Positions 1-15,142 of a stretch of 15,142 nucleotides of DNA are shown here, piece after piece. The stretch is from Cytauxzoon felis. Lineage: Eukaryota > Apicomplexa > Aconoidasida > Piroplasmida > Theileriidae. The notes under the pieces were generated by a model, which was given only the letters and a program-made list of their open reading frames with translations, searched no databases and had not been told where the DNA came from. Location of the stretch: NCBI GenBank assembly GCA_020283715.1, contig JAIQCW010000323.1, forward strand, positions 1 through 15,142, read 5' to 3'. The stretch's first letter is position 1. Each line of letters starts with the position of its first letter. A program made the position numbers and the translations under genes.

Positions 1-4
1 AAAC

Positions 5-470
5 TCTCTTCGTCCTGCAGACAGCTCTCCACTTGAGGTCGTCCTGCCGTCAGCTCTCTCTATTTACTTCCCCCTCCAGCTCCCGTAGATCGCTTCCAGG
101 TATTACAGTTGAGGTTTCCACTTGAGGTTACATCACTACCTTCATTTTACCTCCAAAATTTGAAGGAAAATCTCAATTTCTGGGGAAACTCACGACGATA
201 TCTCAATGACCATTGGATGAAATTCAGATGTCAATATCTCATTCAAGAGGAATTTGATGATTGTATCGGAATGAAGAGATGTCATTCGTTTTCATGTTAT
301 ATTCATTGAGTTATACTCTAAAACATGTAATTCCATCACTTTAACCTTATCTCTCCGAGATTAGGATTATAACCTCAAGTGGAACCTGGAAGCGATCTAC
401 GGGAGCTGGAAGGGAAGTAAATGAAGGAGCTGACGGCAGGACCTCAAGTGGAAGTAAAGGACGAAGATTA
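5..470. repeat. Foldback repeat, copy A (long imperfect inverted repeat)
   Basis: This GC-rich island in AT-rich DNA has two arms that are inverted copies of each other. A perfect 27-base match pairs 75-101 with the complement of 384-410, and a 13-base match pairs 43-55 with 428-440. The outer ends share TCTTCGTCCT. The 11-mer CCACTTGAGGT occurs at 29-39 and 118-128, and its complement at 372-382 and 441-451. The arms enclose about 240 bases of unrelated, more AT-rich DNA with no recognisable protein. The structure resembles a MITE or foldback element, but no transposase is visible. The left end is close to the window edge, so its limit and any target-site duplication cannot be judged. It lies downstream of, or in a large intron of, the hydroxylase gene. 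Confidence 0.75.
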
Positions 471-549
471 GCCTCAATATGGATGTTTATTGAATGATAG
501 CAAGTGCAGGTGCATAGGGACTGTCTTGTAAAACTTTCATGTTACTTAC

Positions 550-1159
550 CATTGATATATAATAGGATTGTAGCGGATCTGAATGCTCCATCATGATGTT
601 CCTTGAAATAGTCTCCAGGGTTATATTTGACCATTACTAGTTTTTCTAGATAATTTACATCCATATTGGCGATTGATGAGACTCTATGCTCTATTTTGGA
701 GATACTTTCTGTTTCTCCATACTCGAATATAGCGCTCATACTCTTCCTGGTATTACTTACACTTGTATGATATGTATCCTGGGGGATAATAAAAACGAAT
801 GAATTTCAAATTAAACATACAGGATGTCCAGATAATTTACCTTTAGATGTTTGACTAAATGTCCATTTATATTCACTTAATTTTAATAATTCATCTATCC
901 ACTCTTCATCTAATATGTTAAAAATCATTGATATTTCTGGATTTATATTTATGTATAATTTCAGTAACTTTTTATAATCGTAATTATCACCCTTTTGTAT
1001 AGTTAGTGTACTCTTTTTAAAACAATTTATATCAAATCCATCGTCAGATTCTTTTATAATATGCCTTAGATTACTATAATTATCTATACTGCATTCACAT
1101 AATCCAACAAATTTAGTATCTTGTATACCAATTTTATTATAATCCATCTTTTGACTCAT
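550..1159 (-). CDS. Prolyl 4-hydroxylase-like 2-oxoglutarate/Fe(II) oxygenase, 3' end not visible
   Basis: Exons, 5' to 3' on the minus strand, are 1159-821 and 778-550, joined across a 42-nt intron (820-779, GTATGT...CCAG, phase 0). They give 189 complete codons, then a donor (G|GTAAGT at 549). The oxygenase fold starts near residue 80. The stretch PGDYFKEHHDGAFRSATIL carries the HxD iron ligands at about His174 and Asp176 and a prolyl-hydroxylase-like context. The distal iron His and the 2-oxoglutarate-binding Lys/Arg, normally about 50-70 residues further on, are not found in any frame down to position 1. The last exon is therefore either beyond the window, past repeat A, or lost. No signal peptide is visible, which suggests a cytosolic or nuclear enzyme such as the Skp1-type hydroxylases of other protists (inference). 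It is divergent from the PDI gene. Confidence 0.8.
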
Positions 1160-1821
1160 AAAAATAAGATAAATACCTTATCTTATTAATCATTTCAATG
1201 TCTATACAGATGTGCAAATTAGCTATAGATAGGATATGTAGGTGCAATCAATTTTATATAGTAAATTGCTTTGAATATAGACTTTTAAGTCTCGTTTATT
1301 CCTTTTAGTGTGATTATATACAACATGAACAATAGAATCCCAGGTAATATATTTATATGTATAATAATGTCAACAGTTATGGTCAAATCATGATTAGACA
1401 AGTAAATAAAGTTTTTAAATTTTGTAGTTAATTAACATTTAACGCATAAATTTATATTTTATCATTGATATGTTATTAAAATGTGTAAGTAATAATTTAT
1501 TAATACATAAATGTTTACATAGTACTAAAGGGTATTACAAAACATGCTTGTGTATATGTTGATATATGTAAAAGTATCGAAGTAATGTGTACATAAATTA
1601 AGTGTTATTATGCTTCTAAATATAATACTAGATACTATATATGATCCCCATAATTAGAGCATACCTGCGTCTGAACCTTTGTCCAAATGCTGTTAAATCT
1701 ATATTTATAATTAATTATTTATATATATAACTAACAATTCGATTTTTTTAATCCGTAAAATTGTTAGTATTTTGTAATAAAGTAACATTGTTGTATAAAG
1801 ATCGATTTAATTCTAGTGAAA
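1160..1821. promoter_or_regulatory. AT-rich divergent intergenic region, hydroxylase/PDI
   Basis: This 662-nt spacer lies between two head-to-head start codons and should hold both promoters (inference from layout). It is mostly low-complexity AT with no recognisable RNA gene. The only less AT-rich stretch is about 1658-1700. On the minus strand that stretch is flanked by an acceptor-like TATAG and a donor-like AG|GTATGC, so it may be a short untranslated or unassigned exon. Confidence 0.5.
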
Positions 1822-3365
1822 ATGTTACGACTATCTAAACTGTTTATGATCACCCTTGTCTCACTCATATACACATTGCCAACTATATACTGTGCTCCTG
1901 ATACAGATAATAATGATGATGCAGTTGTAGTTTTAACAGAAACTGATCTAGATCCATTTTTAGAGAAGAATGATGCCGTTCTCGTCAAATTTTATGCCGA
2001 TTGGTATGTTGATTCCATTAATTTTTTATCATAAAAATAAATTATAGGTGTATGCATTGTAAAAATTTAGCACCTGAATATGCTAAAGCCGCTAAACTTC
2101 TCAAAGATGAAGGATCAAACATACTCTTAGCCAAAGTCAACGCTGATGGAAATTCCAATCTTCTCGGTAAATATAATATAGAAGAATTTCCTACATTAAG
2201 ATTCTTCAAAAAAGGAGTACAAATCAGCTATTCTGGCGATAGAAAGGTTTGTTTATATACAATGGTTCATTCATACTTCGCTCTTTTGTACTAATTTTTT
2301 TCTTGATTAAATTACATGATAATATAGGCAGAGGGTATAGTGGATTGGTGTAAGGATATATTGGTTTCGGCGGTTGTAGAGGTGGATAATTTGGCTGCGG
2401 AGTTGGCGTCAATTGATGCAGGTGTTGCTTTTGTTGCATCGGGTGTTCCAAAGGATAGTGAATTGTATAAGACGTTTGAGGAACAGGCTGATTTGTATCG
2501 TAAATCGACTAAATTCTATTATACTAGTAGTGGTAGTGGTAAATTTGAGGTTCATCATCCAGAAGATGGTGTAACATCGTTTGAGGGTAATAGTGGTGAT
2601 GAATTGGCAACATTTTTGAAGGAGGAATCATTACCATTATTTGCTGAGATTACTGGGGATAATTATTTATTGTATGTAACGAGTGGTAAGAGTATGTCAT
2701 GGTTTTGTGGTGCTGAAGAGGATTATAAATCATTTAGATCCGCATTTGTTGGTGCTGCAAGAAGGCTACGTTCATCTGTACTGTTTGTGTGGGTAGATTC
2801 CGTGAAATTTTCAACCATTAAAGACGCATTTGCTATTGAAACATTACCGGCGGTAGCACATCAAACATCAGATGGACGTTATATTATGGAATCTGGATCA
2901 TATGATTTTAATAGTACAGATTCTATAGTATCATTTTATAATGATGTTGATGATGGTAAAATACCAAAGAGCGTACGTAGTGAAGATGAGCCTGAAGTTG
3001 ATGATGGCCCTGTACGTGTTGTTGTTGGTAAAACATTAGAGAAATTATTTGTACAAAAAGAAGCTGATGTATTATTAATGGTACATGCACCACATTGTAA
3101 ACATTGTAAGAACTTTATGCCCGTATTTGAGGCATTCGCTGAGGCCAATAAAGATAATGCATCATTAATTGTTGCCAAAATTAATGGTGATGCTAATGAA
3201 TCACCCATTGAGGAAGTCAGATGGGATTCTTTCCCCACACTCTTATTCTTTAAAGCCGGATCCACTACACCCACAGTATTTGGTGGTGAAAGAACACAAA
3301 AGGCTATCGAAGAATTTGTAACTCAAAATGGTGGCGTCGTCGCCGATGTTAGATCTGAATTATAA
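1822..3365 (+). CDS. PDI: Protein disulfide isomerase, two thioredoxin domains
   Basis: Exons 1822-2003, 2048-2246 and 2328-3365 (introns of 44 and 81 nt) encode 472 residues, close to the usual length of about 480-510. The ATG at 1822 opens a signal peptide ending near residue 24 (YCAPD). Thioredoxin domain a has WCMHCK at 61-66, formed across intron 1, and the cis-Pro loop EEFPT near Pro109. Redox-inactive b and b' regions follow from about 130 to 355. Domain a' has HAPHCKHCK with Cys384 and Cys387 and its own SFPT cis-Pro near 430. PDI catalyses disulfide formation and isomerisation in the ER lumen. Both active sites differ from the canonical CGHC. The C-terminus ends RSEL, a poor match to KDEL-type retrieval signals. 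Exon 3 is less AT-rich than its surroundings. Confidence 0.95.
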
Positions 3366-3458
3366 ACATATCAATCTCATATCGAAAAACTGCACATGTA
3401 TTATTATCCAGAAGGGATATCAAGATTGAACTTTTGTTCAGTGATGATTAACATATCC

Positions 3459-3770
3459 TTGTCTTGCAGACAGCTTTCCACCTGTGTTCCATCTCTTCCA
3501 TTGCATGGAGCTCTTCTATTTACTTCCCCCTTCGCTTCCCTGAGATCAGCTGCGGGTTCCACTTGAGGTTACATCCAACACATCCTTAGCACCATCTTCC
3601 ATCATTCCTATGATGGATGATCCATCACTACCTCCTCTTCCGCCACGATCTCTGGGAGTGGCTCTACCGTTTACTGGGAAGTAATTGGAAGAAGCTCCAC
3701 GCCTAGTGGAAGAAGAGTTGGTTGTAACCTCAGGCGGAACAACGAGTGAGTAGCAGTGATGCCTAGTAGA
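3459..3770. repeat. Foldback repeat, copy B
   Basis: This GC-rich block lies between the PDI and hydrolase genes. It shares a 21-base identical stretch with copy C (3461-3481 = 5141-5161). It also contains a 22-base block (3641-3662) that is the exact reverse complement of 5234-5255 in copy C. CCACTTGAGGT is at 3559-3569 and a variant complement, ACCTCAGGCGG, at 3727-3737. The TATTTACTTCCCCC and CCCTGAGATCAGCTGCGGG modules also occur in copies A, C or D. The two arms pair less well than in A and C, which suggests an older or rearranged copy. No protein is encoded that I can recognise. Confidence 0.7.
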
Positions 3771-3992
3771 AGTATAAATATTCCATTGAATGTGTATTTC
3801 ATTATTATTTTCATCCCAGTTCTTGTAAATGGTCTTTTTTATTATTTATGTATTTCCCCATTTATGTCAATTTACCCCAGCGTAGCTAATTCTCAAAAAT
3901 CGGTGACTGCTTCTATTGAATTTAAAATAATATGTAGAGAAAGCCCAAATTATTTTAATATTCAATCGATGTTATTTTGTAATTCATTATAG
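3759..3992 (+). CDS. Doubtful small ORF with hydrophobic N-terminus
   Basis: This 77-codon frame begins with an ATG at the right edge of repeat B. Its N-terminal half is hydrophobic and signal-peptide-like (VYFIIIFIPVLVNG), followed by a polar tail with no family I recognise. Hydrophobic frames arise easily by chance in AT-rich DNA, and there is no supporting splice structure or conserved motif. It could be a lineage-specific secreted peptide, a decayed exon or noise; noise is most likely. The rest of 3771-4149 is AT-rich and holds nothing else that I see. Confidence 0.15.
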   Translation: MPSRSINIPLNVYFIIIFIPVLVNGLFYYLCISPFMSIYPSVANSQKSVTASIEFKIICRESPNYFNIQSMLFCNSL

Positions 3993-4149
3993 TTGTTTGT
4001 ACAATATGTGTAGTCATTTTTAAATACATGTTATAATCCAGTTTTAAAGATCGTGAAAACTATTATCATCTTATATATTTATTACCTTAAGGATACAGCG
4101 TTACCATTAATATACTCATCAATTGAATTTCTATCGCATTACTTCGAGG

Positions 4150-5801
4150 ATGTATATCCTTCCATTCATTATCATCGCATTGTGTAAATACACATATATA
4201 GCTGTTGATTATGGTACTGAAATTCCGGATTCTATTAGTCATACTGCTGAAGACGATGAAGATAATAAAGGCAAACTTGTTATGAGTAGTTTCTTAAATA
4301 AACAAGGGATTAGGATTAGAACGTATGCCTCAAGAGTTAAGAATCCAAAGGGACACATGATACTTATTCATGGTGTCCGTGCCCATTTTAGAGGTCATTT
4401 CTGTAGGTATAATCTTGAATGGTATGCGAAAAATGTTACAGAATATGTAAGATCGGATGCGAAGACTGTATTGGATAAAGAATTGAATGATATCTTTCCT
4501 GATTTGAAATCATTAAAGGGTTTAAGAGTACGTCATAATGATTCATTAAATGGTATAAATGCCTTTGATGTGACACCTAGATTTTTATATGAAGGAAGTT
4601 TTGTACATGCACTCAATAAATTTGGACTCTCAGTATATGGGTTGGATTTACAATCCCATGGGTTATCCGGTGGTATAGATAAACAAAGATGTTATTTTCG
4701 TAAATTTGATGATTTTGTATATGATGTTATGCAGTTTGTCAGCATCGTTAAGAGAGGTAGATTTGATGATCCAACTGAAGTATGGGATGAACAATTGGTC
4801 TTCAGTGATCAACGCCATGATAACCTCCAATACCATCTCATTGGATTATCATTGGGTGGTAATATAGTATTGAAGTCACAACTTTTATTTGATTTGAATA
4901 CCAATCGACAGGGTAAATTCATTGATAGCATAATCTGTATGAATTCTACGCTTAATATTGACCGTATAGTTACACGTTGCAATAGACTTCTACTCCCATT
5001 TATATGGTTATATTCAATTGTAGCACCAAGACGTGGATTATTATTTGAAAGTATGGATGTATATGCACATGGCATTGAATTGTGCATGCGCTATAATGTA
5101 AGTTGACCGTTTAACGTCCAATCCACTTCCACCTGAGGTCGTCTTGCAGACAGCTTTCCACTTGAGGTCCAGTACTACTCTTCTTCCACTTGCCGTGGTG
5201 GCCTCTTCCAATTACCTATCTCTAAAGAGTAAAGCCACTCCCAGAGATCGTGGCGGTGAAGAAGGTGTAGATGGAAGTGGAATGAAGAGTAGTACTGGAC
5301 CTCAGGTGGAACCCGCAGCTGATCTCAGGGAAGCGGAGGGAGAAGTAATTAGAAGAGGCCTCCACGGCTAGTGGAAGAGTTGGATTGTAATATTAGTTGG
5401 GTTAATCACTATTTTCCTTATTTTCTATATTCATTTTACATATATATTCTATAGGACCCATTACATCATGTGAGTAGAATACCATCAAGGACTTTAGTAT
5501 TAATTTATAATGCGACTAAAGATTTAAGAACTAAGATGGATCATTACCCTAAAGATTTACCCACTCTATTCATACATTCCAAATATGATCGTATATGTAC
5601 TTTAGAGGTTAGTTGATGATACTTGATATATCACACCTCCTTCTTCAGGGTCCAAGATATTACATAAATACATATTTTAAAGATAGCAATGTTGTTAAAT
5701 TACACGAATTAGATGGTAAATCACATATTATCACAAATCCATCAGATTTTCCAATAATGGAACCAGTTTTAAAAAGGTGGTTTAATACACTTTATCAATA
5801 G
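4150..5801 (+). CDS. Secreted alpha/beta hydrolase, lysophospholipase/PST-A-like
   Basis: Exons 4150-5097, 5455-5607 and 5649-5801 give 417 residues. The first in-frame ATG (4150) opens a signal peptide or anchor (MYILPFIIIALCKYTYIA). HGVRAHFRGHF (oxyanion region, near 70-80) and FGLSVYGLDLQSHGLSGG are typical of monoacylglycerol lipase/lysophospholipase-like hydrolases. The nucleophile elbow GLSLGG places Ser234. HSKYDRIC in exon 2 supplies Asp361 and GKSHII in exon 3 supplies His393, so the catalytic triad is complete and spread over all three exons. Family members cleave lysophospholipids or acylglycerols; the apicomplexan group is expanded and often exported, but the substrate here is unknown. 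Intron 1 is 357 nt and contains repeat C; intron 2 is 41 nt, the usual size in this window. Confidence 0.92.
5114..5392. repeat. Foldback repeat, copy C, inside hydrolase intron 1
   Basis: This GC-rich palindromic element fills most of an otherwise AT-rich intron (5098-5454). Inner arms pair 5157-5191 with 5276-5310, including a perfect 17-base match (5167-5183 with 5284-5300). An outer pair around CCACTTGCCGTGGTGG (5186-5201) matches the complement near 5354-5373. CCACCTGAGGT and CCACTTGAGGT are at 5129-5139 and 5158-5168, with the complement at 5299-5309. As transcribed RNA it could form a long hairpin within the intron (inference). It shares modules with copies A, B and D. A long open frame crosses it but is only a by-product of its base composition. 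Confidence 0.8.
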
Positions 5802-5921
5802 AATGTAGTTTTTGTCTTGTAATTAATCACATCGTAGGACTATTTCCTATATGAAACACACATGTAATTGAAATGTACTATAATTTTAAACTATTTATAT
5901 CTTTTTATTTATACCCGAAGT

Positions 5922-6058
5922 CATTCCACCTCTTCCACCTGAGGTCACCTCCACCTTCTCTTCCCACTCGCTGTTCCACCTGAGGTCCGTCCTTCCCATT
6001 GCAGACAGCTTCCTTATTTAGCTCCCCCTCCGCTTCCCTGAGATCAGCTACGGGTAGT
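5922..6058. repeat. Partial foldback repeat, copy D
   Basis: This GC-rich half-element lies 120 nt past the hydrolase stop codon. It has CCACCTGAGGT at 5935-5945 and 5976-5986, TTGCAGACAGCTT as in B and C, and CCGCTTCCCTGAGATCAGCT as in B and in the complement of C. The matching right arm is missing: the sequence drops abruptly into AT-rich DNA after about 6058. It therefore looks like a truncated copy or a solo arm. Confidence 0.65.
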
Positions 6059-6732
6059 GTACTATCATTACTGGCAGGATATCAGTAATATTATATTCGT
6101 GATATATTACTATAATATCATCTCAATAATTTAATGGTATATAATGTATTTTATTGCATAATTTGTATAAATATAACTATAATAATGTAATAAATTAGTT
6201 AACAAGCGGAAATATATTCAATTTTAAATTTAATTTAGATGAAATATTTTATGGGGTAATTGTGGTGTTAAAATTTTACCTAAACTTCATATATAAAATT
6301 CAAGTACATTTACTAAATATAAATCTAATACTTTAAATATTTATTAAAATATGGATATAAAAGCTTCTATTTAATGTAATAAAATTGAAATTGATACTAA
6401 TATAACGAATATTTATGGGTTTTTAAATGGTGCAACCCCCACATGATTTAGTAACAAAATTTCAAATAAATACGATTATAATTCATTATAATATAATAAT
6501 AAGAATACCAAATCCTGATACTTATATATCTAATTATTATATATCTTCAAAATGTATTAATATTTTACTTTATACAATTTAGTAATTATATAATGATATT
6601 TCACTACCATATATACTTACATGTATATATTAAAGTGATAATAGTAACGTATTGTTTAATATAAAATATTAATTTATAATATATTGCATGTAAATGATAT
6701 TTTATCATTATTTCAACTCTTATATACATAAA
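6059..6732. other. AT-rich intergenic spacer, nothing recognised
   Basis: This stretch is almost entirely A and T, with stop codons in all frames. I see no tRNA-like cloverleaf, no coding-like segment and no repeat-family module. It separates the repeat-rich left third of the window from the repeat-free remainder. Confidence 0.5.
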
Positions 6733-7031
6733 TCAACACACAAAATGGTATTCATAATTTATGTCTACAGTACTAGCAGGATGATCCTCGCCATCTTGGA
6801 GCAATTTTTTTGATATTTCGTAATTTTTCAAAATTTTAGAAATAACATCATTGAATATAATAACATGTTGTAAAACTTCCATTTATACCATTATTTTGTA
6901 CTGGAAATGCGTATATTCTGAATTAAATACCAATTAAATTCAGATGGTAGTGGTGGTAATAATACAATCGAACTAAACTCATTGAATATAGCTAATATGA
7001 CAAAATTAAAACGTTTCAAGCTAATTATAAC
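6733..7031 (-). other. Coding-like tract downstream of the SET exon, possible extra 3' exons
   Basis: Two open segments on the minus strand read like protein: 7031-6894 (46 codons, including NEFSSIVLLPPLPSEFNW) and 6882-6733 (49 codons ending ASTVDINYEYHFVC and a stop). The first has no ATG, so it would have to be an internal or 3' exon. One route joins it to the SET gene. A donor at G|GTAAT (7062) inside the last SET codons and a weak acceptor (TGAG, ending at 7032) would replace the final residues of the SET protein with this tail, and a 26-nt intron (donor near 6901) would join the second segment. The acceptor is unconvincing, and SET proteins normally end soon after post-SET. The alternatives are a decayed neighbouring gene or chance. 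I recognise no family. Confidence 0.35.
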
Positions 7032-7052
7032 TCATTTTAAATCTAAATTTGA

Positions 7053-9939
7053 TTAAATATTACCTATATAGCCTCTACAAGATTTCGCTCCACATAGACA
7101 TGGTATTGACCTATATGATGACCCATAACAATAAGTCAATGCTTCTCCAGCAGAGATATCACAGAGTGCATAAACACCTATACATGGAAAATCATCACCT
7201 TTCCAGACTGTTATAACTTCTACATTTGGTTCACATGAGTGATTTAAAAATCTAGCAATGTTTCCTAGAACCATACTATCTAAACATGGCATTTGCCAAT
7301 CATCGTATTGTTTTTCTGCTTCAACAGCTTCCATACAATAATTAAAATGACCCAATTTATCATAATGATGTTCCCTTGAGGCCATTTCACTCCTACATAT
7401 AATCTCTCCAACATATTGCATTATGAACGTCCCGCTTGCTATTGGTACCTAAAGTAACGTATAATTTTAAACGAAAAATAGATATTTCATAATCTAAAAT
7501 TATTGATTAACATACCCTAGTATGTAAAGCCCAACCCAGATGTGGTACTTTAATCAATTTTACTGGTACTTGTAAACCATCGGGTAACCTATTTATATGA
7601 TTGAATCATTTCAACTCATTCATCATAAATAACGTATAAAATTCTATAAACTCACCTATTTGTACATGTATTTGGACATGGACAATTATCGGAGCATGCT
7701 GCCCTTGATCGTATGGTAGATAGATATCTTTTATTGATACCATCACAATAAATTGAACCATTTTCATCAATATAACCTTTACAAAATCCATTTACAGCTC
7801 TACAATATAATTATCTATGAGTTATATTACATGCTTACATCTTATAACAGTTTTCAGGTTTAGTACCCTCTGGTGAACATCCAGCACAAATAGGTTCCAA
7901 ATTAAATTGTGGTAATCTTGAGAAAAATACATTATTTCTTATATAACTAATTATAATTTCAGTTGAAATATAATGAAAAAACATACGTAAAACCCATTGG
8001 TGGTAAATCTGAATCAACTTCGTTTTCCACGGGTATAGGATATACTTCAGACCCAGCACTAATATCTACATATGGATTCCAATCTCTAGGAAATGGTTCA
8101 CATAATTCAATATAAGTCCAAATTGATGTTGAATCACTCTAATAAATATAATTTTTTAAAAAAATGAAATATATTTAAACCTGTGGAAAGAATGGTCTTG
8201 CGATAACTTTGGCCATTTCATAATTTATAGCTAATGATTTTTGATATTCGATTTTTTTTCGATAGAATTTTTTCTTTAATTCCTAATTTAGTAAATTCAA
8301 ATATTAATTGTTTTTTATGTTCAATTCTTTGTATAATTAATTTTAATGGTAAGAATTTACCTTTAGCCCACCATAATTTAGAATTTAATAGTTTTTCATA
8401 TTCTCTAACAGGACCTCTTAACCAATATTTAGCAACATTTTTCTTAATACACATCTAAATTAATTAATATAAATGTATTTTTTAATTAAACTTACATGTT
8501 TAATATAATTATAAATTGTACATAAATTAACGGGTATAGGTAGATTTTTATCTTTATTTTTAATTGTAATTAAATGTGGTATACCAATTGTAAATAATTT
8601 TTTACCCCTATAAATAATATTAACATGTTTAATATCAGCAATATTTCTACTATTTAATGATTTTAATATCTTTAATCTTGAATATGTATGATTAAATAAT
8701 ATACCACGCATTGTACGTTCTTTTATTCTTTTAAATTTTAATATACCATCCATTGTCATATTATACATTGGTGGTACTAAATTTATATTACATGCTGAAA
8801 ATACATATACCCACACTCTAATATCATTATTATCATTATCTGAATATACATTAATTATGCGATATAATCCATCATAACGATGACCCCAAATTGGAGCATA
8901 TCTAGAATAACAATTATAACTACGCACTACTCTTATAGGTATTTCATGTATCCATGATTTTTGTAATGTAAAATGAATATCAGCATATTCCGTAGGTTCC
9001 TATAAATAATAAATAATCGGTATAAACAAAAATTCTTATAATAATTTACATCATATATCATTTACCAATATAAAACTTACATTTCCATTACCAAATTTAA
9101 AGTACATTATAAATCTAGTACCCATATCTTGACGTAAAGATAATGTAGAATCTAATACTATGGCATGTACCAATTTATCAGTCTGATCAAATGTAGAAGC
9201 AGATTCATCAATTAAATCATGTTTAATATCATCAACTGAGAATATTTCATATGGAGTTTGAGCTATACCAAAAAATAATAACTCCTCTCTTCTCAAAAAA
9301 ATGTGTAAACGGTGGAACTTTAAGTGAAGTTTCTCCAGGTTGTAATTTAGCATCTTTTCCAAATATTCTCCTTCGCTCTTCCCAAATTAATTCCAATAAA
9401 TAATTACGTCCAGTTTTTACCCTCCCACTCCTTAATTTAGATATACTCATACCATTAGATTGTATTGCAGAACAAAATGCATCATATCTTGCTAGCAACC
9501 ATATCAACTTTTTTTGACTTGACAAATTGTCCGGATTCATACATAATAAATTCCCTAAACCTTTCGCAGTTGGTGCTATAATTAAATTATATTATTGATA
9601 TTGATACATATAAAATATGTCCATCAGTTAATTTATAATACATAAAATAAATACAAATAACATACCTATATGTCTTGTAGGATCACATTCTAATATTCTC
9701 ATTTCATATTCATCTATACTATTATATGGACGAGTAATTCTCGTCACATTTTTATACCCAAAATCATTCGTTTTTGTGTCATTTTCAACACTAAGCACGA
9801 GATCATACTTATCACTTGATGCAATAGTATCTTCAATAATATCCTGATTACATTCATCCAAATTCTTTAGTTTAATCAACTTTTGGGAAGATGATGAGTT
9901 TTTTCTGATCTTTTTGTTGAGTTTGCCATTACTAGTCAT
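7053..9939 (-). CDS. SRA-SET histone lysine methyltransferase (SUVH-like), two homopolymer frameshifts
   Basis: Exons on the minus strand: 9939-9666, 9575-9081, 8999-8496, 8454-8181, 8138-7987, 7916-7839, 7799-7656, 7588-7516, 7448-7053. Introns are 39-90 nt and phases match throughout, provided one extra base is ignored in each of exons 2 and 4; this gives about 795 residues. The order is: basic N-terminus; helix region like that preceding SRA in plant SUVH proteins (about 110-140); SRA/YDG domain (about 190-320) with IPIRVVRS, RYAP and HRYDGLYRI; pre-SET with nine cysteines (about 575-640, ending CSDNCPCPNTCTNR); SET with HLGWAL, NHSCEPN (733-739) and LTYCYG; post-SET CLCGAKSC. By family it should methylate histone H3, probably Lys9, with SRA binding modified DNA; both roles are inferred. 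It is divergent from the cis-prenyltransferase gene, 354 nt between start codons. Confidence 0.9.
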
Positions 9940-10293
9940 ATTATGTTACAATTTCATGTCTATTATACATTGTTATTTATGAAATGAAAGTTCGTGTTAT
10001 GATTCTATTATAATTCCTAACACATTCGATACATTTTAATTGTAATTGTTATAAATGTTGAATTATAATGTATAAATTCCTACTTACAATAATTTGAATG
10101 AAGCAACACACTATATATAAGGATATATGGATTCTTATCTTGTTGATAAAAATGTCGGATTTATTATATGTTTTTATTTTATATAAAATGTATATTTGTG
10201 TTATTTTAAATTAATGTAAAATAGTTGCATTTAGAAATATGAAATTCTATTATTTTATAGACATATCCTTTTATCGATTAATTATCGAATAAA
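9940..10293. promoter_or_regulatory. Divergent intergenic region, SRA-SET/cis-prenyltransferase
   Basis: These 354 nt of AT-rich DNA lie between two head-to-head start codons, so both promoters should lie here (inference from layout). I see no distinct motif, RNA gene or repeat module. Confidence 0.45.
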
Positions 10294-11257
10294 ATGTTAA
10301 CAATATTGGAAAAGTGTGTTATTTCGATAATTAAATTGCTTACAAATGTTAAGCATATTGCTATTATAATGGATGGGAACAGAAGATTCGCTAAAAGTAT
10401 GTCATTGGATATTTCTAAAGGTCATGAATGTGGATTTAATAATCTTATACGTGTATGTTAAACGTATAAATATCTATCATATTATTAATTATTATAATTT
10501 AGATCGCTAACTTATGTTATTATCTTGGGATTAATACACTTACAGTATATGGTTTATCTTTATTAAACTTTAGAAGATCAAAAAAAGAAATTAATGATTT
10601 GATTGATTTATTTATACGTGTTATAGATAATAAAGGGGAATTGATGTAAGATATATGATTACTATATGACATTATTATAGTAAATTTGCCGATGATATTA
10701 AGTGTAAGATTCGATTTTGTGGAGACTTGTCATTTATTGGAGATGATGTTGTAATAATGATTAAAGATGTCGAGAATAGAACTAGTGTTTATAACAAGTA
10801 TGTTATATTAATAATATTAATAAATTTATTTAGTATGACTTTAAATATATGTGTAGCGTATGGAGCTAGAAATGAGATCGCAAATACAATAAAAAGGTGT
10901 AAAGAAGATGGTGTATCTATGTATGTTTAATAATAATAGTATATATTAATTAATATAGTAAAAATACAAGAGATTTTTATAATAAATTATATACCGGTAA
11001 TATAGATCCACCTAATATATTAATTAGAACATCCGGTGTAACAAGATTATCAGATTTTTTAATATATCAGGTAATGTTTGTAAAATAAATATGTTTATTT
11101 ATAATATTATATTAATATTTTATAGTGTTCAGAATTTACATCACTATATTTTGTGAATGAAATGTGGCCCGAACTTAATATTTGGAGAATCATTTACATA
11201 GTTATACATCATTTGATATTTCAACCATCAATGTTTAACGGTACAAACTGTTATTAA
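10294..11257 (+). CDS. cis-Prenyltransferase (polyprenyl diphosphate synthase, DHDDS/UppS family)
   Basis: Exons 10294-10452, 10503-10645, 10681-10797, 10834-10920, 10959-11070 and 11126-11257 encode 249 residues, the usual core length. Introns are only 35-55 nt. The family motifs run in order: HIAIIMDGNRRFAK (catalytic Asp27; the RRF form is eukaryotic-like), LTVYGLSLLNFRRSKKE, IRFCGDLSFIG, MTLNICVAYGARNEI, PNILIRTSGVTRLSDFLIYQ (RTSG at 192-195) and LYFVNEMWPEL. The enzyme adds isopentenyl units in cis to an allylic primer, making dolichol-type polyprenyl diphosphates for ER glycosylation and GPI anchors. The C-terminus is short (QPSMFNGTNCY) and lacks a clear RxG motif. Most exons are too short to show in a simple ORF scan, but their phases all agree. 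The stop lies 18 nt from that of the convergent ASH2-like gene. Confidence 0.93.
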
Positions 11258-11275
11258 TTAATCTTTTATATAAAA

Positions 11276-12436
11276 TCAACTTATTAAAGGCTTATCCATC
11301 AAACAACTTGCTTTATATTCATCTGGTGGTTTATATGTAAAATCAGGTCCTAAATATATATTTTAAAATTACAAAATAAAATGTACCAAAATTTATTGTT
11401 ACAGTAGCACCCATATATAATGAAACTGCTGGATGATAAAATCCATCATAAACGATTAATTCACTTTTTGGGAACCTAAAATAATATAATAATTTAAAAA
11501 ATATAATATATTTAAACTTACATTTTTCCATTTACTGAAAACTGTACAAATGAATTACTATTATAATCCGATTTTGGTATATTGCGTGGATCACACAGCA
11601 TACCATCTATAGAAGAATAACAATATGATTATCATCTAATACAAACTTCTTAGAAATTCATATAGTTTAAGATTTTTACGTGGATCAATAAAATGTGTAG
11701 TAGGATCCTCTAGACTAATATAACAACCTATAGTATCACCAGGGCCTGATATAAATATTCATATATATTATTATTTATTAAAAATTACCAAATGGGATAG
11801 CATATGGATGTTTTTTACGATTATTAACAATACGCCCATCTATATCAGATATAGAAAAACCAAAATTATTTATGCCAATTGGCATATCATATCTTTGATA
11901 TCTACATGCATAACCAACTCTATAATATAATGTATAAATACTTATTACATTATAAACTACCTAATATGACCTTTAACATCAAGTTTATTAGATGTATCAT
12001 AACCAACAAAACGTATACATTTATCATTATCTTCATTAATCTTTACTTCAAAATACCTACAAATTGAATACAATTATATCCAATTTTCAATAAAAATTAC
12101 CACTTTCCATAGGAAGCACCGTGCGTACCAAATACTGACGTCCATCCCTAATTAGAATATGATTACATTGTAAACAACAACATACTTTGTAGCCAGTTGC
12201 CGATAATCTATCGTTTGATAATTTTATATTTTTATCTTTATATTTAAATGAAAGTCTAGGACATTCATTGTCATCTAAATAATACAGACACATTCAAATA
12301 AAGGAATAGTCTTCTTACCAATATTATTGCCATTCTTTTTATTGTTATAATCAGTTAGTGTTTCATTATATGGCCTTTTTAAATTCGATTTAAGTGACAA
12401 AATACATGAGGAGTCATCCTTCTCCTCGTTGTTCAT
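11276..12436 (-). CDS. ASH2: ASH2-like SPRY protein, COMPASS subunit
   Basis: Exons on the minus strand: 12436-12319, 12274-12136, 12056-11961, 11919-11789, 11745-11647, 11606-11522, 11475-11387, 11349-11276. They encode 276 residues, with introns of 37-79 nt. The ASH2-type SPRY fold fills the protein from about residue 50: KLSNDRLS, YFEVKI (87-92), HIRVGYACR, NNFGFSISDIDG, GPGDTIGCYISLED (162-175), VQFSVNGK, HPAVSLYMGATVTINFGP. A short tail, FTYKPPDEYKAS, sits where other ASH2 proteins carry the DPY30-binding segment. ASH2 proteins activate SET1/MLL methyltransferases on H3K4 in the nucleus. The N-terminal PHD/winged-helix part of animal ASH2L is absent. I placed the exon 2 donor at CA|GTATTTG (12135) because the later G|GTAATT donor breaks the frame and the conserved YFEV. 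It is divergent from the primase gene. Confidence 0.9.
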
Positions 12437-12548
12437 GATTGGTTGCTTTACATTTTTTGACTTATCTCTTACACATTACACCATCCTCCACATAAGACAA
12501 CTAATATATATAATCAAACCAGGCCCATTATATACCTTTTTCGTTGAA
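12437..12548. promoter_or_regulatory. Compact divergent promoter, ASH2-like/primase
   Basis: Only 112 nt separate the ASH2-like start codon (12436) from the preferred primase start (12549). An upstream in-frame ATG for the primase at 12435 would overlap the ASH2-like start codon itself. Transcription of both genes must start within or very near this stretch, unless regulatory DNA lies in the coding exons. I see no clear consensus motif. Confidence 0.5.
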
Positions 12549-14724
12549 ATGGGTTTATTACAAAATAATATTAATGATGATATCTACATTAATTGCTTCT
12601 ACAAGGGTTGTAAACATGTTCTATCATTTTATAACGACCCACCTCTCCAAGGAGAGATTAACCTTCGGAATATTCAGGAAATTGCCGCTAAACGTTTAGC
12701 TTGTATGTTTATTATGTCAATTTTATCATTTTTATGTTAAATTCTCAGTGTTACAATTTATTGATGCTAGAAGTGATATAAAATTAAAATCGCATAAATC
12801 TAAAGATAGTGAACGCTCCAAATCAGACCAAAAATATAGTATGTGTAACTTCTATACTTATTGTTTACATTCACAAATAGATGACCGATTAAATGAAATA
12901 GAAGAAAAGATGTATGAATTTGGTTTCATGCTATCTAAACCTCTATTTAACACGGAAGATATGCTCGAACATATTGAAATCGCTCAAGCTGATGTAATAT
13001 CACATTTTATCTTAAGACTGGCGTATATTTTTATTTAAATTATTTATTAATTTCATTTCAGCTTTGCCCGTGATAAAGAAAAGAGTGAATGGCTAATACA
13101 CAACGAGTGTAAATTATTTGACATAAGATTGGAGAAGTTACGCAATATCAAAGTACAAGAAGTTGACGGTGTTGATAAATTGGAAACATTTTTATCAAAT
13201 CAAGGAATTAAATATCAAGTTGTGGGTTTAATAACTTTTTAATATATAAATTTACTAGATGAAAAACCCAAATTCATTAACAAAAAATCGCTATTTATCG
13301 AAAGAAGGACAAGATTTTAATGATTTAATACGATTTAGATCTGATTTCAATAGTATAGATAAGGTTTACTTGGTATATTCTTTAAATTAAAAAACAATTT
13401 TTATGACTCAATTTCCATAGGTACCTTTTTATCCGGATGCTATGCAATTGGTGAGGTCACGGCAAGTTGTCATAAGAAGTTTGTTAACATATTTATTTTT
13501 ATTATTTATGTTATTTTTTAATAGAATCTGTCGCATTTGTTCCACCAAGTAGTTTATTTATGGTTATATCTACTAGATTTAAGTATAATTGCTGTATTAT
13601 ACATGAATATATTATTTTAGGATAAACCTACAACAATCTGTGCGATACCTTACTGAGCAATCGCATTTGTTGGATTCAAATGTGTTTAAGGATGAAAGAC
13701 TCGCTGGATTTTTGAAAGTATTACCAGAATCATATCTAGGTGAGTATTACTTTTGTAGTTAGATTATAATGCACAGCTGCTGATTACTCTAAATTTAATA
13801 TAACTGAGGGGAGCCGTTTATCATTGGCTAATATTAATCAGGTAAGTATATTTTAATGGTTCACTGAATGTTTTTATAGATATACAAAATTACTTTCCCA
13901 CCATGTATGAGAAGGCTTTTTTCACATTACATGTAAGGATAGAAACGTTTAATATCTTGATCTAAATTAAATAGCAAAACCGGTCATTTGAAACATTATG
14001 GAAGACAACAATTATGGTTATTTTTGAAGGTATGCTATTTATTATTCAATTTATACATATTATTACATGGTATGTTTTTAGGGTGCAGGCATGACACTTG
14101 AAGAGTCTATGCATTTAAATCGCACAATATGGTCAGATTCAAGTAATTTTGAGAAAGAGTATATTAAAACTAGTAATTATACCATATTTATAACTTTAGA
14201 CATGGTTACAATGTGAGACATTTGTACGGCAAAGAAGGTCGCAGGGCAAATTATCCGCCATATAGTTGTGGAAGAATTCTAACTAAACTACCGGTATATA
14301 AACTCTATTTGAAGTTGTTTGTAATAGATATTTTTAGGTAAATACGGGTGGTAGCGTTCACGGATGTCCATTTAAAGAACTGGATATGAAAAGCTTAAAT
14401 ACACTACTTCAGGAATTCAATTTATCATGTATAGTTTTTAAGATAATATTGCAAAACAATTACTATTAGCTAAACAAATTACACCAATACTGGACCTTAA
14501 ATCAACACATCAATATCAAATGGCATGTGTAGAATATTTTAATCAAACTACACCAAATGGTAATGGTATGTTTTATTCATTTGCTAATATCTCATTTTTA
14601 TATAGCTGAAGGTGTGGGTACACATCCGAATATCTTTTTCCAAAATAGTTTCAAGGCTAAATTTAATCAATCAACCGAAGATACAACTGACGTTAAAGTT
14701 GATAAAGTAAATAGTGTACCTTAA
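12549..14724 (+). CDS. PRI2: DNA primase large subunit (iron-sulfur)
   Basis: Sixteen exons: 12549-12702, 12749-12838, 12881-13022, 13062-13218, 13259-13363, 13421-13478, 13525-13582, 13621-13739, 13777-13841, 13880-13932, 13975-14029, 14082-14158, 14200-14293, 14338-14428, 14470-14565, 14606-14724. They give 510 residues, matching the usual length of about 500. Markers are [45 protein letters not shown] and VHGCPF. The four 4Fe-4S ligands are Cys325, Cys401, Cys419 and Cys459, with the expected wide-narrow-wide spacing. The subunit works with the catalytic small subunit and DNA polymerase alpha to start RNA primers in nuclear DNA replication. Intron 12839-12880 (42 nt) keeps the frame if retained, so it is uncertain. 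The ATG at 12435 is an alternative start, but 12549 fits the family N-terminus better. Confidence 0.95.
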
Positions 14725-15142
14725 AGGTTACAATGTTGTTGTAATACTACTTTAATCATATAATTTTCTAATATACAATGTATTATATTCATCTTAACTA
14801 GAGTTACATATAATTTTATGAATCAAACATGATTACTATATGATATAATAGTAGTTATATATGATATGCAAAATGGGTTTGTAGTATATAAATTTTTATT
14901 AATTAAAAATACTCACGTAATAATACAATTGAAGGATGATATATAGCTGTATGAAGCTGTATAAGTGTTAATATGAATAATTATTGAGTATAAATATTGT
15001 TATTTTAATAATATTTAATAATATGTATAATAGTGATAGTAAAATATATGTATAATAATATATGATAATAATTGATTAATATATTATTTAGATGATAATA
15101 TAGTATAGAATATGGTCATGAATATATAAATTAATATGTAGT
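14725..15142. other. AT-rich 3' flank of primase gene, nothing recognised
   Basis: This low-complexity A/T sequence with many ATAATA-type runs presumably contains the primase 3' UTR. There is no coding-like segment, RNA gene or member of the foldback repeat family. Confidence 0.5.

Follow-up and report, generated by a model that had tools for sequence, protein, structure and literature searches.

SRA domains are regarded as modules that read modified cytosine. In UHRF1, the flipped methylcytosine lies between Tyr466 and Tyr478, Asp469 hydrogen-bonds it and Thr479 aids cytosine selection, according to the available part of PMC5995235, and paired tyrosine walls are described for both TagI and UHRF1 in the available part of PMC6212794. 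Here we describe an SRA-SET gene of the piroplasm Cytauxzoon felis, found in a 15,142-nucleotide stretch of DNA (contig JAIQCW010000323.1, positions 1 to 15,142; hereafter the window). We consider it reasonably probable that this gene is the piroplasm member of an apicomplexan SRA-SET family and encodes a nuclear histone H3 lysine 9 (H3K9) methyltransferase with a repurposed SRA. Its interest lies in the apparent loss of the methylcytosine cage within a conserved family and in the finding of no DNA methyltransferase in a limited-power search of the same assembly.

Gene structure and domain order

The gene runs on the minus strand from its ATG at 9939 to the end of its stop codon at 7053, exactly where a first-pass annotation made from the letters alone had placed it. 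Exon joining, Pfam matches and collinear orthologues support a model of nine exons and eight GT-AG introns of 39-90 nt each, encoding a protein of about 807 residues. Exon 1 (9666..9939) carries the start codon, and exon 2 (9081..9575) encodes a pre-SRA part, helical in the model of the Babesia bovis orthologue, followed by the N-terminal half of the SRA. The C-terminal half (IPIRVVRS, RYAP and HRYDGLYRI; ~8787-8999) lies in exon 3 (8496..8999), which also begins an apicomplexan insert that continues through exon 4 (8181..8454; WWAKGKFLP). The Pre-SET (~7656..8057) spans exons 5-7 (8138-7987, 7946-7839 and 7799-7656), the SET begins in exon 8 (7516..7588; LGWALHT), and exon 9 (7053..7448) holds the SET core (YVGE, NHSCEPN at 7224-7244 and LTYCYG) and the post-SET.

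Pfam was run on the exon-joined protein with an X placed at each of two frame breaks. The order is SAD_SRA (residues 228-325; 31.7 bits, barely above the cut-off of 30.7), Pre-SET (545-652; 32.6 bits against 29.1), SET (670-785; 76.6 bits against 22.4) and post-SET, with nine pre-SET cysteines, QYVGE, LGWAL, NHSCEPN, LTYCYG and a post-SET CLCGAKSC (CxCx4C) all present. This bears out the SUVH-like order that had been proposed, and the SRA match falls close to the anticipated residues 190-320. In a six-frame scan across the assembly (8.62 Mb, 181 contigs), a portion of exon 3 by itself reaches 32.1 bits for SRA, and this gene is the sole SRA place found. Nine pre-SET cysteines are present in 11 of the 16 rows counted, with eight in four rows and 12 in one that has an odd gene model. 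In several species, the SRA and SET occur together in single predicted proteins collinear with the window gene. This weighs against a joining of exons from two separate genes and favours one gene for the YDG region and the SET exons.

Structural comparisons rest on an AlphaFold model of the B. bovis orthologue (P0003; 40 sequences, mean predicted local distance difference test (pLDDT) score 77.9) rather than of the window protein; a model of another Babesia orthologue (P0001; 18 sequences, mean pLDDT 54.5) was poor and was discarded. The SRA of the B. bovis model agrees in fold with that of UHRF1, and a pre-SET, SET and post-SET fold is present, as judged by Pfam on the window protein and by fold on the orthologue model. 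Between the SRA and pre-SET lies the conserved insert of about 200 residues (WWA.GGFLP, VNF..IY.YI; window 8496-8786, 8181-8454 and 8058-8138, minus strand), modelled mostly at high confidence as helices and a long beta hairpin. VIA-align, which barely tests parts of the model outside 530-799, returned no named fold for it.

The gene had been called complete, which needs qualifying: that description missed two breaks in the reading frame, one in exon 2 at a 7-nt homopolymer run (9295-9301) and one in exon 4 at an 8-nt run (8252-8259). Predicted piroplasm orthologues that span both sites stay in frame there. Because no further break was seen in the exon-joined gene, assembly error is most likely the cause. 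Two breaks within one coding sequence could also mark a pseudogene, or a gene decaying in this species while its orthologues function elsewhere, and the lack of rows named Theileria parva, T. annulata or T. orientalis in three protein lists would fit loss in related lineages. We think this very unlikely: homopolymer runs are a common site of assembly error, and the gene retains intact splice sites, all nine cysteines and its catalytic motifs. At 0.17, its terminal branch in the SET tree is also shorter than that of B. microti (0.25), although four other Babesia rows have shorter ones still (0.06-0.10).

Apparent loss of the methylcytosine cage

We compared the cage by profile-profile alignment of 16 apicomplexan rows with 14 canonical SRA rows, namely UHRF1, SUVH4/5/6/9 and nine hand-picked plant or algal matches. 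Five apicomplexan rows (P0005, P0014, P0015, P0016 and P0077) were dropped as fragments, rows without an SRA, second gene models or near-copies. The column of Tyr466 holds tyrosine in 14/14 canonical rows and in 0/16 apicomplexan rows, none of which has any aromatic residue there; across the 463-470 stretch an aromatic occurs in 3/16 apicomplexan rows, as opposed to 14/14 canonical ones. At the Tyr478 column, whose register is uncertain by one residue, tyrosine is found in every canonical row and in a single apicomplexan row (Cardiosporidium), another being a gap. An acid at the Asp469 column is present in 11/14 canonical and 0/16 apicomplexan rows, and Gly465 is retained in 1/16. Arg537, Arg554 and the YDG triplet are retained in all 16. 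A separately made multiple alignment gave the same cage register by our own reading. The alignment thus did not recover the two-tyrosine cage in the apicomplexan SRA, which appears to have lost the structure that grips a flipped methylcytosine.

This loss does not look like simple erosion. Among nine piroplasm rows, mean pairwise identity is 0.60 in the loop that replaces the cage, 0.57 and 0.63 in the flanking parts of the SRA, 0.79 in its core and 0.31 in the finger region. As the replacement loop is about as conserved as its flanks, constraint is favoured over free decay. A search of a viral structure library was not informative: SET proteins made up most of what it returned, with one viral protein labelled SRA-like in the top rows.

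In searches with limited power for intron-broken domains, the assembly gave no candidate cytosine-5 methyltransferase. The six-frame family search gave no match at E<=1 to the cytosine-5 methyltransferase family PF00145, although the control RNA methyltransferase family PF01189 gave 6. The six-frame search being weak for intron-broken domains, a PPCQ codon pattern was also sought; it occurs at 10 places and its reversal at 21, and to our reading no translation from the 10 resembles a DNA methyltransferase. Tet/JBP likewise had no match in this search, whose power is limited for intron-broken domains. The CpG observed/expected ratio is 0.74 and that of GpC 0.84 over about 192 kb, only a mild CpG shortage. 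Elsewhere in the phylum, tRNA-Asp is the reported substrate of DNMT2 in Plasmodium (available part of PMC9778586).

The first-pass annotation had suggested either a link between DNA modification and heterochromatin or a repurposed SRA. The absence of the Tyr466 side of the cage from all 16 apicomplexan rows, with no cytosine-5 methyltransferase found in a search of limited power, leaves the former unsupported, and the latter fits better. A version of the former would have the SRA still reading a modified cytosine (5-methylcytosine, 5mC; 5-hydroxymethylcytosine; or another base) through a rebuilt pocket, with the mark coming from a methyltransferase that is divergent or missing from the assembly, much like the SUVH-CMT3 loops of plants. 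The retained SRA fold, the invariant Arg537, Arg554 and YDG, a tyrosine one place from the Tyr478 column in 12/16 rows and the CpG shortage would suit such a reader, and an intron-broken methyltransferase could have escaped the search. Yet that CpG shortage is mild, neither PF00145 nor PPCQ yielded a candidate, and the 466 column lacks an aromatic throughout, with both neighbouring glycines mostly gone. We judge continued reading of modified cytosine to be quite unlikely.

A conserved apicomplexan family

The gene itself is not new, since orthologous proteins already carry named annotations in public records. A protein search gave 75 rows, of which the leading 16 (P0001-P0016) include 14 labelled apicomplexan, mostly from piroplasms, with 60% identity to Babesia bigemina over the queried region. 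A second search (9 rows) added Neospora, two Toxoplasma clusters and Cystoisospora, extending the family to coccidia, and it is also found in Cardiosporidium. In a tree of the N-terminal/SRA part (10 rows, coccidia left out), the window protein pairs with Theileria equi at 95/95. On this evidence we place it as a piroplasm gene on the T. equi side, in keeping with the apicomplexan origin proposed from the sequence alone. A literature search by title and abstract start, with most subscription journals outside its coverage, returned no paper dedicated to an apicomplexan SRA-SET protein.

The relationship to plant SUVH proteins is less direct. The SET-region sample drew 31 rows from 81 profile matches and added G9a and ASH1L. 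In the resulting pre-SET/SET tree (33 rows), the apicomplexan sequences (11 rows) group in a single clade at 100/99 and the plant SUVH sequences (ten rows) in another at 98/99. A joint clade of the two was not rejected by the approximately unbiased (AU) test (p-AU 0.451; 27 rows). The label SUVH-type is sound as a description of architecture; a common fusion origin is neither shown nor rejected.

The family's distribution is patchy among the rows obtained. Besides the three Theileria species noted above, neither Plasmodium nor Cryptosporidium is named in any row of three protein lists (75, 9 and 7 rows), which is weak evidence given length limits and word-sharing, and the available part of PMC9487757 reports C. 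parvum to have no nine-cysteine pre-SET. These missing rows may reflect repeated gene loss within Apicomplexa. The Cardiosporidium-led search (7 rows) contained no row named as a chromerid, dinoflagellate or ciliate.

A candidate heterochromatin writer

Several lines of evidence suggest an H3K9-type enzyme. The nine-cysteine pre-SET is described as usual in the SUV39 family (available part of PMC9487757), the best structural matches of the orthologue model are GLP/G9a and SUVH, and EHMT1 stands first among solved-structure sequence matches of the Besnoitia orthologue. The assembly holds seven SET places including this gene. By our reading of single exons, the other six comprise one locus in which PHD-like and cysteine-rich parts precede the SET, one place each of SET1-like, SMYD-like, SET8-like and LSMT-like type, and one left unassigned. 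None of the six shows a recognised nine-cysteine pre-SET by this single-exon reading, which may miss intron-broken domains. For T. annulata, five SET candidates are reported (available part of PMC8163883).

Alternatively, the main substrate of the SET could be H3K36, H4K20, some other histone residue or a protein that is not a histone, and the SRA would then serve as a scaffold. The window protein's own best solved-structure sequence match is ASH1L, an H3K36 enzyme, with EHMT1 just below; a SET tree rooted on ATX1 puts the apicomplexan clade weakly (84/72) outside the SUVH/G9a/SUV39 group; and among other apicomplexan SET proteins, TaSETup1 is able to methylate H3K18 (available part of PMC8163883). 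Set against these are the pre-SET, structural and Besnoitia matches above, and the PHD-like locus, which by our reading is a SET2/ASH1-type gene. We regard a different principal substrate as unlikely.

The ASH1L match and the tree placement nonetheless weigh against H3K9 methylation by an enzyme with a repurposed SRA, as do several other points. The frame breaks in the window copy could be real, Gly464 is retained in 5/16 apicomplexan rows, and the one-residue uncertainty at Tyr478 coincides with the displaced tyrosine seen in most of them. The assembly may be incomplete, and a six-frame PF05033 search missed the window's own intron-broken Pre-SET, so the absence of a methyltransferase is not proved. 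The classing of the six other SET places is subject to the same loss of intron-broken domains.

If H3K9 methylation is nevertheless its role, the enzyme would write a heterochromatin mark read by an HP1-like protein. Its motifs and fold suggest that zinc clusters in the pre-SET and post-SET would hold the SET fold, with the NHSC and TYxY motifs forming the sites for S-adenosylmethionine and lysine. The tyrosine of LTYCYG is presumably the position that tunes mono-, di- and trimethylation in SUVH- and G9a-type enzymes. The SRA would be kept as a folded module beside the catalytic domain and, since it lacks the cage, would probably target or stabilise the enzyme through contacts with unmodified DNA, nucleosomes or proteins rather than by reading 5mC. 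We offer more tentatively the possibility that the apicomplexan SRA, no longer a 5mC reader, gained a new ligand, which might be the shape or sequence of plain DNA, a different base modification or a chromatin protein. It would then guide H3K9 methylation, including at clonally variant gene families, in parasites without DNA cytosine methylation.

An SRA conserved in fold and in position on a histone methyltransferase, but lacking the cage in an assembly where a limited-power search found no cytosine-5 methyltransferase, would be a natural separation of two functions. The gene is also a candidate for the enzyme that writes the H3K9me3 heterochromatin over multigene families of Babesia MO1 (available part of PMC11370697); by term counts, the part of that paper available does not use the word 'methyltransferase'. 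On contig C81 (L006, about 46.3 kb), we also read an HP1-like gene whose chromodomain is split over exons (EVEDIIDFR ... YLVKWKGFPPEDNTWEPE), with a second chromo-like stretch downstream.

Neighbouring genes and an interspersed repeat

Three further genes were recognised on the plus strand of the window: a protein disulfide isomerase-like exon (2328-3365; Thioredoxin_6 and Thioredoxin), a serine aminopeptidase S33 or alpha-beta hydrolase-like gene (4111-5106; Hydrolase_4) with a repeat copy downstream, and a cis-prenyltransferase (10297-10930; PF01255) of at least two exons, the second above the cut-off and the first just below it.

The repeat is a 24-mer, CGCTTCCCTGAGATCAGCTGCGGG, with 2583 copies (1288 plus, 1295 minus) at <=3 mismatches in the 8.62 Mb and none for the control. 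Copies in the window lie at 3533 (+), 5312 (-) and 6031 (+), conservation extends about 60-70 nt around the 24-mer (37 copies; two sampled stretches overlap by 2.6 kb), and copies adjoin exons of both the hydrolase and a SET gene. So abundant an interspersed repeat seems unusual for a compact piroplasm genome. It is absent from 60 kb sampled on contigs C111 (L007-L010) and C119 (L017-L018) and from L014, while other 10-kb samples hold 1-6 copies; CpG and GpC ratios are mostly higher in the C111 and C119 samples. Its absence from some sampled contigs raised the idea of a mixed assembly, and a single match for ribosomal protein S6e favours one organism.

Comparison with known systems

The nearest relatives are the T. 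gondii 'histone lysine methyltransferase SET/SUV39' (P0078) and Babesia SET-domain proteins (P0001-P0004 and P0006), which share the domain order, the insert and the absent Tyr466 and form one clade with the window protein. Coccidian orthologues differ in having long additional inserts and in keeping more of the DQ..N..L stretch, whereas the window copy has its two frame breaks.

Plant SUVH4/KRYPTONITE, SUVH5, SUVH6 and SUVH9 have the same order of SRA, pre-SET, SET and post-SET, and both families carry DIS.G.E and an N.VDD..PP..FTY linker into the pre-SET. Plant SUVH proteins are also the top Foldseek rows for the orthologue model. The apicomplexan proteins nevertheless differ from them in lacking Tyr466, in a longer SRA-to-pre-SET insert and in their separate SET clade. 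With human GLP/G9a (EHMT1/2) the difference is in the accompanying domain: Pfam matches at E<=1 in the window protein include no ankyrin repeats and no chromodomain, and an SRA is present instead. The SRA itself is in one respect closer to UHRF1/UHRF2, with which it has in common the fold and the (K/R)YAP..G.RYDG motif (RYAP in the apicomplexan proteins, KYAP in UHRF1), a stretch absent from the plant SUVH rows shown. It departs from them in the missing Tyr466 and in a shortened, variable finger region, and the same Pfam matches of the window protein include none of the RING and PHD domains of UHRF1/VIM proteins or the ubiquitin-like domain of UHRF1.
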